Source of the DNA: a virus
Strand: one strand, 5' to 3'
DNA: 41,328 nt
Virus record (IMG/VR): IMGVR_UViG_3300042455_001689
Location: 1-41,328 of that record
Made by a program: the position numbers and the translations under genes. The notes under the pieces are model-generated. The model did no database searches, was not told the origin of the DNA, and saw only the letters and a program-made list of their open reading frames with translations. Of this stretch, positions 14,098 to 16,863 are shown one piece after another (within the stretch, counting starts at the first letter, position 1; every line of letters begins with the position of its first letter).

Positions 14098-15099
14098 TTA
14101 CGCACCCCTTACCGCCCCGGCTCGATTGATACGCTTATTCGCAACATTGAAAGATTTATCGCTAGCAACCTCGACCAATGCGAATCCGTGGTTCCATCGA
14201 TTTACCCTAGCGTACCCTGGGGTGAGATCGCAAAGGCACCCCGTCGACCATACGAAAGTTTCGCTGTGAAACATATCGGTATCCGCATGGCCGCTTGTTT
14301 GGTGGCTGTGGCCCACCAAGACGGTATGATGCGTCCGAAGGAATGCCCCTCTAGCGGGATTGACTGGACTGAAAATCGACTTGCCCAATTCGTGACCGTG
14401 AAGCACCGGAAGCTTGCCTAGCATGATTGGTCTTTGATCGCCGACCGTTTCGATCCCTAGCCGCTTGCATTGCGTCAATTCATCGATCCGCACATTCGCT
14501 AGGTCGTAAATCTCAGGGGCTCGATTCCAGATGAAGTGGTCCCATCGCTCCTCGTGGTTGCCATACTTGTAAATGATTCGCTTTTTGGGGAATTCGTGCC
14601 GTAGCCACTCTAGCCCCTCAATCACCGCTTGAAGCTCAACGGAAAACCGCCTGTGTTTTGGGTCGCGTTGATGCCTAGAAACCTGGTAGAAATCCGCTAC
14701 ATCGCCATTGAGCAAAAGGGTGTCGATCGATTCTTTCTTGAGGGCATCTACCGCCGCCTTGAACGCTGTCTCCGAGTGGTAGGGAATATGGATGTCTGAC
14801 AGTATCCCAATCCGCTTTGCGTCGACCGTGAAGGGCTCCCAGGGCTCTGCAAGGGATGGTGGCATCTTCGGAACTTGGCCCGCCTTGCCTTTGGGCCTTA
14901 CTTGCGTTGCTGTACCGCGAAGCTTGTTTCCCGATGCCCCTCGAATGACTCGAATGAGACTCCTGGCCCCGTCGATCGAAGTAAAGCTCTCGGGTCGTTC
15001 GGCCTTGGCTCGCTTGGCTAGCCCTATATTCGAGTGGTCAGGGAACTTCGCGCAAAGCTCCTCAAGGTACAATCTCGCTGCCGTCTTCGGTTGGGCCAT
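14098..15099 (-). CDS. Calcineurin-like metallophosphoesterase
   Basis: 333 aa from ATG 15099. The N-terminal 90 residues form a basic, helix-turn-helix-like extension. The catalytic domain follows, with SDIH (101-104), GDVAD (132-136), YGNHEE (179-184), HGHE (234-236) and GHSH (263-266), all the metal ligands of the family. Substrates cannot be told; phage members may process DNA ends or nucleotides. It lies at the end of the tail operon and overlaps the Erv-like gene by 38 nt. Confidence 0.88.
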   Translation of the reverse strand: MAQPKTAARLYLEELCAKFPDHSNIGLAKRAKAERPESFTSIDGARSLIRVIRGASGNKLRGTATQVRPKGKAGQVPKMPPSLAEPWEPFTVDAKRIGILSDIHIPYHSETAFKAAVDALKKESIDTLLLNGDVADFYQVSRHQRDPKHRRFSVELQAVIEGLEWLRHEFPKKRIIYKYGNHEERWDHFIWNRAPEIYDLANVRIDELTQCKRLGIETVGDQRPIMLGKLPVLHGHELGKSIFSPVNPARGAFLRTHHTVLVGHSHQTSGHADTDMFHSETFVWSTGCLCDLTPGYARVNRWNHGFALVEVASDKSFNVANKRINRAGAVRGA

Positions 15100-15466
15100 C
15101 GGGTTTCCTCCAAATCGATAGAGCCTCTTCGTAGGTCAGCTCAGGCTTGCCGAGCTTGCGGTTTACTGCGTTGTGTAGTGCGACGCCCCAAGCAAAGAAC
15201 GCTTCGGGGGTGCTGAAATCGGGGGGGTTGTCGGCCTTGTATTTTGCGTAAAAAGCTCGGCATCCGCATTCGTATTGAGGGATGGTCTTTTCCCATTCGG
15301 CTAGGCCCGCAGCATCGACGATTGAGCCGTTGTGTAGTGCGATCCAAGGGTTTACCAGTGGGCGAAACACAATCGACGACGATCTGACCGGGCTGCCATG
15401 CGAAACCCCGTTAGCCTTCGGAGGAAGTAGCTTTTTGGCTATGTCTGGATCGCTACGATCGATCAT
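15062..15466 (-). CDS. Erv/ALR sulfhydryl-oxidase-like protein
   Basis: 134 aa. The C-terminal 95 residues follow the Erv/ALR pattern: PWIALHNGS (40-48), IPQYECGCRAFY (63-73), FFAWGVALHNAVNRKLGKP (90-108). The WxxxHN and HNxVNxxLGKP elements bind FAD in that family. The usual CxxC is CGC here (67-69), a spacing that can still be redox active. It overlaps the gene for a virion protein with about 39 cysteines by 4 nt, which hints at disulfide formation in that protein. The family match is good; activity and target are inferred. Confidence 0.65.
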   Translation of the reverse strand: MIDRSDPDIAKKLLPPKANGVSHGSPVRSSSIVFRPLVNPWIALHNGSIVDAAGLAEWEKTIPQYECGCRAFYAKYKADNPPDFSTPEAFFAWGVALHNAVNRKLGKPELTYEEALSIWRKPDGPTEDGSEIVP

Positions 15467-16863
15467 GATAGCTCGATGGTTACCGATGGAAGGTTAAAAC
15501 AAAACGCACCAACTGTATTCGCCTGTAGTTCGCCTATCGTGCAGGTGTAGTCGCTGATAGCCACGCTGCAATACGGACTACCGAATTGATCGCCGTAGAA
15601 CTCCTGGCAAGAAAATTGCACGTCTGGGCTGTCCGGCGTAAAGCAGCATTCTCCCGTCAAGCAAAGGCCCGTAAACGCACACGCCCCAAAAGTTCCGTAC
15701 ATGTCGGTGTAATACTTAACGATGCCTTCGTCGGTTTCGCAGTAGCCGCAATAAAACCTATCGAGTCCAGGCCAAGAATCCAAAACCGAACCATCGAAAG
15801 CGTAGCAACCGCTGTCGGCGTCGAAGACATAGCCTTCGCAAGTGCCTTCCGTTAATTGCTTGCCTTCGATCTGCGGGCATCCCGTAACAATATCGCAACC
15901 ATCTTCGTATGGCGGAGGGCCTGGATTGTTTCCTAGTGGCTGCTGGCAAAAATAGTGGTCGGATGCCGGAGGCCCGTTGTAGGTCGGTAAATTCGGAACG
16001 CAATTGCTAACCAACTGCAACCCGCAAGGCTGGCCCGAAACAATGCAGCCCGTTTCGCTACCGCAACAACTGACAGGTGGCAAATCCGCGTTCGTGATCG
16101 TAATCTGCCCGCTAGGCAAGGCGTCGTAAAGCTTGATCCGCGAGATGATCTTGCTTTCAGTCTCGCTACAAAACTGCCAAGGGTCGGCATCCAAAACATC
16201 CTGGCAATCGTTTATAGTGCTAGCCTCTTGCGATGTTCCAGTATAGCTGCAATTGCCTGGGCGATAGTTGCCGGTGCAAGTTGTTTCGATCGTGTACTCA
16301 GGGAATAGCGTTACCCCGGCATCCCACAAGAGCGGATAATCGCACACCTCAAAAACGTAACTAGCCGCTACGTAGTATTTACACGCCGGTGCTTCATCGC
16401 CATCGCATCGAACCAAAACTTTCCCAACGTGAATTCGGATCGTCTTTAGTTTGTATCTTGCAACCCAGTATATCTTGTCGGTTCGACTGAAGGTCACGTT
16501 TTCGGTTTGGATTAGAACGCAGTTGCAGTCGTGATCGCCGGGTTCGCCGTGGTAGCTAATAGTTGGCCTTGAGTATTCGACCTTGTACGCAAAGTCCAGA
16601 TCTTGCTGCGCCCACACCCCGCAATGCTCAACGTACTCTTGGCACCCTAGATTGAAGTCAGCCGTAAAGCAGCATCCAGCCGGATTGAATTCCGCCGATG
16701 GGTAAATCGGCTCGCCTGGACCGCCTGGGCCACCGATTCCAATACTGCCGCCGCCTAACCCGCCTTCGCAATCGTCAAGCGGAGCGATGAGCGAAACGGA
16801 TTCGTAAGGCATATCCTCAGGCTCAAGGCAACAGGGGCAGCCGCATTTCCCGAAGCATCCCAT
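15463..16863 (-). CDS. Very cysteine-rich virion (tail) protein
   Basis: 466 aa from ATG 16863, whose A is shared with the preceding stop (TAATG). By my count it has about 39 cysteines (8 percent), spread along the chain, many in CC or CxC pairs; the N-terminus is MGCFGKCGCPCC. A Gly-rich stretch (GGLGGGSIGIGGPGGPGEP) follows at about 33-51. The rest is beta-type and Gly/Thr/Asn-rich, like an extracellular adhesin. It sits after the tape measure and two tail genes, where siphophages put tail-tip or receptor-binding proteins. No known fold is recognised. Confidence 0.75.
   Translation of the reverse strand: MGCFGKCGCPCCLEPEDMPYESVSLIAPLDDCEGGLGGGSIGIGGPGGPGEPIYPSAEFNPAGCCFTADFNLGCQEYVEHCGVWAQQDLDFAYKVEYSRPTISYHGEPGDHDCNCVLIQTENVTFSRTDKIYWVARYKLKTIRIHVGKVLVRCDGDEAPACKYYVAASYVFEVCDYPLLWDAGVTLFPEYTIETTCTGNYRPGNCSYTGTSQEASTINDCQDVLDADPWQFCSETESKIISRIKLYDALPSGQITITNADLPPVSCCGSETGCIVSGQPCGLQLVSNCVPNLPTYNGPPASDHYFCQQPLGNNPGPPPYEDGCDIVTGCPQIEGKQLTEGTCEGYVFDADSGCYAFDGSVLDSWPGLDRFYCGYCETDEGIVKYYTDMYGTFGACAFTGLCLTGECCFTPDSPDVQFSCQEFYGDQFGSPYCSVAISDYTCTIGELQANTVGAFCFNLPSVTIELS

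Follow-up and report, generated by a model that had tools for sequence, protein, structure and literature searches.

A probable CxC-type Erv/ALR-like sulfhydryl oxidase coupled to cysteine-rich tail-region proteins in tailed phages

The tail proteins of phages are made in the cytoplasm, and bacterial disulfide formation by DsbA/DsbB takes place in the periplasm. The cytoplasm in which phage tails mature is reducing, and heavily disulfide-linked phages are nonetheless known. The particles of phages Milano (PMC10811340) and 7-7-1 (PMC12796354) contain many disulfides, and the receptor-binding proteins of Milano are disulfide-bonded to its baseplate proteins (PMC10811340). Neither a sulfhydryl enzyme nor an oxidoreductase came up in term searches of PMC10811340 and PMC12796354. 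Erv enzymes encoded by eukaryotic viruses are known (PMC3509050; PMC10598087), and they act as the oxidase for virion proteins made in the reducing cytosol; the poxvirus enzyme E10R works in a relay with A2.5L and G4L. In the engineered CyDisCo system, cytoplasmic yeast Erv1p together with PDI forms disulfides in E. coli cells that retain their reducing pathways (PMC5471842). In the uncultivated phage presented here, by contrast, an Erv-type oxidase gene is attached to the gene of its proposed client.

The window, by which we mean the whole stretch of DNA analysed, comprises positions 1 to 41,328 (41,328 nucleotides) of IMG/VR virus record IMGVR_UViG_3300042455_001689, and the tail-region genes and motifs and the CPPC gene named below lie on its minus strand. 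The portal, terminase, major head protein and protease of this genome are of the tailed-phage type. The tail region contains a tape measure protein (18,075–20,096; PF20155, E 5e-23) followed by a 293-aa (17,192–18,073) and a 109-aa (16,863–17,192) tail-region protein, and then by a cysteine-rich protein (15,463–16,863) of 466 aa when counted from the ATG, or 468 aa if started at an upstream TTG, which is the proposed oxidase client. The client ORF overlaps by 4 nt with that of a 134-aa Erv/ALR-like sulfhydryl oxidase (15,062–15,466), and a calcineurin-like metallophosphoesterase (14,098–15,099) is the next gene downstream. A recount of ORFs and residues confirmed the coordinates and the overlap given in the preliminary description of this DNA, and put the cysteines of the client, estimated there at about 39, at exactly 39. 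The client starts with MGC; eukaryotic-style N-myristoylation of this start was dismissed because the genome carries tailed-phage head, portal and terminase genes.

The 134-aa gene had been described as Erv/ALR-like from its motifs, and this assignment was borne out at the levels of sequence and predicted structure. The protein scored 35.1 bits with Evr1_Alr (Pfam, PF04777), above the cut-off of 27.6, and human ALR structures in the PDB matched it by sequence with E of about 5e-7. The AlphaFold model had a core pLDDT of about 87–97 over residues 41 to 120, and the best 24 matches in a Foldseek search against the PDB were all Erv/ALR enzymes with a probability of 1.0. When the model was compared using VIA-align, it gave Z 10.6 to ASFV pB119L, Z 9–10 to ALR, Erv1 and Erv2, and 8.9 to mimivirus R596, while the related QSOX came next at Z 4.5 and unrelated chains at about 2.2. 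The motifs named earlier were found in the protein as WIALHN, CGC and HNAVNRKLGKP. These correspond to the W41-x-x-x-H45 motif (15,332–15,346) of Erv-family FAD-site residues, the C67-G-C69 active-site pair (15,260–15,268) and the putative FAD-binding signature H98-N-x-V-N-x-x-L-G-K-P (15,143–15,175). An alignment of 70 diverse phage Ervs showed W41, H45, C69, H98, N99, V101, N102 and L105 to be invariant, and the WxxxH and HNxVNxxL(G)(K) signature as a whole was invariant or nearly so; by comparison with the family, these invariant positions would be the FAD-site residues and the flavin-adjacent cysteine. Sequence and model together indicate that the 134-aa gene product is a genuine Erv/ALR-fold protein. 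In fold and FAD-site residues, it resembles ASFV pB119L, mimivirus R596 and poxvirus E10R.

C67 and C69 are the only cysteines of the window's Erv, which therefore has no shuttle disulfide; this feature is typical of cellular Ervs and absent from many viral Ervs, which are likewise compact (PMC3509050). No relatives of the phage Erv were found in GenBank phages by tblastn, and a profile built from a 21-sequence alignment returned a single weak, partial match when run against bacterial and archaeal genomes. Separately, seven loci (L122, L124, L149, L166, L171, L227 and L230) have Erv ORFs of about 310–396 aa, where the region following the Erv domain is conserved and looks glycosyltransferase-like by eye, although the Pfam matches are limited to Evr1_Alr and a weak rubredoxin-like stretch. 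These unexplained fusions also adjoin capped cysteine-rich clients.

The spacing of the active-site cysteines sets the phage enzyme apart. CxxC is the active-site spacing of characterised Ervs. The window's Erv lacks this canonical spacing, and we therefore refer to it as a CxC-type member of the Erv fold family, not as a canonical Erv. The eukaryotic-virus Ervs use CxxC, whereas CxC was present in all 114 parsed loci of the window's clade, a set of 116 loci from two overlapping searches that represent 69 distinct Erv genes. In a wider sample gathered by a DNA-level search for HN-x-VN-xx-LG[KR]P, the matches listed gave 121 unique domains, of which 103 were CxC and 18 were CxxC, and the second cysteine was located at -2 or -3 from the invariant C69 in all the parsed phage Erv domains. 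The Erv tree, in which many forks are unresolved, does not support one origin for CxC, as it needs about five changes between the two spacings with at least two of them forced. Cysteine-rich genes adjoin Ervs of both types.

The co-occurrence of the oxidase and the cysteine-rich gene in other phages had been proposed as a check, and it was found irrespective of whether the loci were gathered from the Erv, from an upstream anchor or from the client starts. Among the first 37 loci, an ORF of 430–523 aa with 31–48 cysteines was present directly before the Erv wherever the upstream DNA sufficed, and in the larger window-clade set a cysteine-rich ORF adjoined the Erv in every locus with upstream DNA. 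The partner kept its place in relatives even when the partners themselves were only about 20% identical. In a test independent of the Erv, the loci were gathered with the 293-aa upstream tail protein, and both genes were found in 39 of the 40 loci having at least 2.2 kb downstream, as well as in five further, shorter loci; the 40th locus (L300) has a diverged Erv that the motif had missed. Conversely, a search with the client start MGxxG[KR]CCC gave 20 DNA matches, and an Erv was located downstream in 7/7 real cysteine-rich ORFs with enough downstream sequence. When one locus was taken per Erv cluster and 4.5% cysteine was used as the threshold for a cysteine-rich gene, such an upstream neighbour was present in 16/23 clusters formed at <50% identity as compared to 3/143 other genes (p 2.8e-14), and in 28/35 clusters formed at <70% identity as compared to 9/267 other genes (p 2.7e-25). 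Thus, the adjacency of Erv and client is more than a chance neighbourhood, and these results together support a tight and reciprocal coupling of the Erv to cysteine-rich tail-region proteins across very different phages. Such a single capped tail-region gene fixed next door distinguishes the phage Erv from those of eukaryotic viruses.

The other neighbours are less constant. The metallophosphoesterase is kept in near relatives and was recognised by motif in only 9/29 divergent clusters with room for it; it was therefore rejected as a fixed third gene and placed outside the core unit. Of nine divergent loci scanned with PHROGs, five showed a tape-measure protein lying two or three genes upstream. 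Within loci L002–L038, the Erv–client pair occurred in two different tail modules, one consisting of a Cys-free gene of 640–700 aa with a 290-aa gene and the other of genes of about 470, 310, 209 and 227 aa, and the N-terminal extensions of the Erv swapped independently of the Erv domain. These two features suggest recombination at the pair.

The clients of divergent Ervs range from 132 to 840 aa and differ mostly in sequence, albeit with a CCCxxC-like N-terminal cap common to otherwise largely dissimilar proteins. In the window's client this cap is CFGKCGCPCC (16,828–16,857; C3, C7, C9, C11 and C12 in ATG-started numbering), and in others it reads KCCCDCCL, KCCCGNC, TGCCCVGC, SCCCDC or ACCCCRC, a dense cluster of cysteines opening most clients. 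With a cap defined as at least three cysteines in an eight-residue stretch of the first 70 residues, a capped gene was found in 30/36 Erv neighbours as compared to 13/387 other genes (p 7e-30). The remaining 6/36 Erv clusters had no capped neighbour in this scripted test, and at least two of these six have a shorter cysteine-rich ORF that the script had passed over. In the client alignment, the invariant columns were all cysteine but one, with overall identity down to about 20%. Furthermore, among 42 non-redundant clients, the difference was even in 82% of the pairs with unequal cysteine number as compared to 38–49% for ten other residues in the same pairs, in a raw pairwise comparison not corrected for phylogeny. 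A cysteine number that changes in steps of two is as expected of disulfide pairs, and this signal favours the presence of disulfides in the client. Of 101 unique clients, 76 have an odd number of cysteines, which hints at one cysteine in each chain that would stay free or serve as an interchain link.

The client has little resemblance to known proteins. Searches of Pfam, PHROGs, PDB folds and GenBank phages gave nothing significant for the window's client, and clients found no match in GenBank phages by tblastn. Ten divergent clients had no match in PHROGs, and of ten compared with Pfam a single one matched, to a DUF11 domain. The 19-sequence client alignment was too variable for a scan of the collection, and a search of the collection with a single client sequence returned one close copy only. 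The AlphaFold model of the client had a mean pLDDT of 74 with no convincing PDB or viral fold, and its matches to pore-forming proteins were dismissed at TM-scores near 0.1. Between residues 80 and 180, the model (15,463–16,869) contains very long beta strands, the longest of 38 residues. We consider the client most likely to be a receptor-binding or tail-tip protein.

The host Dsb system is unrelated to Erv in fold and is periplasmic, whereas neither the client nor the Erv of the phage has a signal peptide recognisable by eye. Since tail proteins are synthesised in the cytoplasm and Erv1p gives a precedent for a cytoplasmic Erv oxidase in bacteria, we infer that the adjacent client is the substrate of the phage Erv. 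The overlapping genes would allow the oxidase and client to be made together in the bacterial cytoplasm, and electrons would pass from the client thiols to the CxC pair of the Erv, then to FAD and finally to oxygen. In this way, the tail protein would gain disulfides during tail assembly despite the reducing cytoplasm and carry them into the virion. The cap may be a docking site for the oxidase or a lock that joins the chains to each other or to the tail, and the body behind it would be fast-changing and stapled by disulfides. CyDisCo differs in being engineered with a separate isomerase; no cytoplasmic isomerase that would sort the 39 cysteines of the client into correct pairs was identified for the phage pair, and a relay comparable to E10R–A2.5L–G4L is hypothetical for the phage Erv.

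Taken together, the predicted fold, the conserved FAD-site and cysteine residues, the reciprocal coupling, the shared cap, the even cysteine steps and the tail-gene neighbourhood make it quite probable that the 134-aa protein is a dedicated cytoplasmic FAD-dependent Erv-type oxidase for the upstream cysteine-rich tail protein. An Erv-fold protein that is no longer an oxidase, and has become a client-specific assembly chaperone or a small structural part of the tail with the CxC as a relic or structural disulfide, would fit with the unusual spacing in the window's clade, the short helices 1–2 of the model and the occurrence of one copy beside a single structural gene, as is often the case with tail chaperones. 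We regard it as unlikely, because the FAD-site residues and the FAD-proximal cysteine remain invariant in the 70 diverse sequences and because the presence of capped clients beside both CxC and CxxC Ervs is hard to explain without redox work.

The dense cysteines of the cap are also similar to metal-binding clusters, and the client cysteines, above all those of the CCCxxC cap, could bind zinc, copper or iron-sulfur while the oxidase acts elsewhere. The coupling of the client to a sulfhydryl oxidase and the gain and loss of cysteines in even steps argue against this, and CxxC over the whole client was no more frequent than roughly expected by chance, which gives no hint of zinc knuckles; metal binding is thus quite improbable in our estimate. 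Erv enzymes produce hydrogen peroxide, and the location of the gene in a late tail operon would agree with an oxidase that travels in the virion or comes into play late, and that oxidises host thiols or generates peroxide when the phage infects or lyses the cell instead of folding the tail protein. That would leave the strict pairing with capped cysteine-rich clients unexplained, and we give it a very small chance. The dedicated oxidase for the tail-region client is the explanation that we retain.

The preliminary description had further proposed that the phage may carry its own disulfide-forming system for an extremely cross-linked tail tip and had pointed to a membrane-anchored CPPC protein at 34.1 kb. 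The ORF (P0001; 34,119–34,598) was confirmed as a membrane-anchored thioredoxin-like protein with an N-terminal hydrophobic segment and CPPC at residues 99–102, although the thioredoxin-like domain had a weak score. P0001 has relatives in 13 of the 23 records tested, among them every one of the nine window-type records longer than 36 kb, but none was found in two larger, divergent records that carry an Erv. The CPPC motif is not strictly conserved, as the 12 relatives read without a motif filter comprised nine with CPPC and three with CEPC. Few positive charges follow the anchor by eye, suggesting a periplasmic domain by the positive-inside rule, which casts doubt on its forming a direct relay with an Erv in the cytoplasm. 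P0001 is possibly a redox partner of the Erv, judging from its conservation in near-complete relatives of the window's own group. Thus, the proposed system is partly supported, by the Erv fold and the coupling to cysteine-rich tail-region genes; the even cysteine steps favour disulfides in a client that may belong to the tail tip and may be heavily cross-linked, and the CPPC component is weakly supported. Immediately before the CPPC gene lies a 272-aa gene (34,595–35,413) that resembles a papain-like peptidase by eye, with the motifs CQGFSLANA, GGHATAWLGY and NSHEDSW, and has no Pfam or PHROG match.

In a limited literature search, we found no paper coupling a phage Erv to a tail protein and no earlier proposal of a phage enzyme for tail disulfides. 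The CxC active site, the shared client cap and the lack of relatives in searches of GenBank phages and PHROGs are new. On a broader reading, to which we give about an even chance, diverse tailed phages would carry a self-contained cytoplasmic oxidative-folding module, where a CxC or CxxC Erv recognises tail adhesins through the shared CCCxxC-like cap and the bodies behind it are freely exchanged. A dedicated phage oxidase would add a CxC active site to the Erv family and widen the range of virus-encoded Erv enzymes from eukaryotic viruses to tailed phages. Compact phage oxidases of this kind may be useful for the production of disulfide-bonded proteins in bacteria. The oxidase–client pair makes the origin of tail disulfides testable and, if true, a dedicated oxidase would answer how a disulfide-rich tail forms in the reducing cytoplasm.
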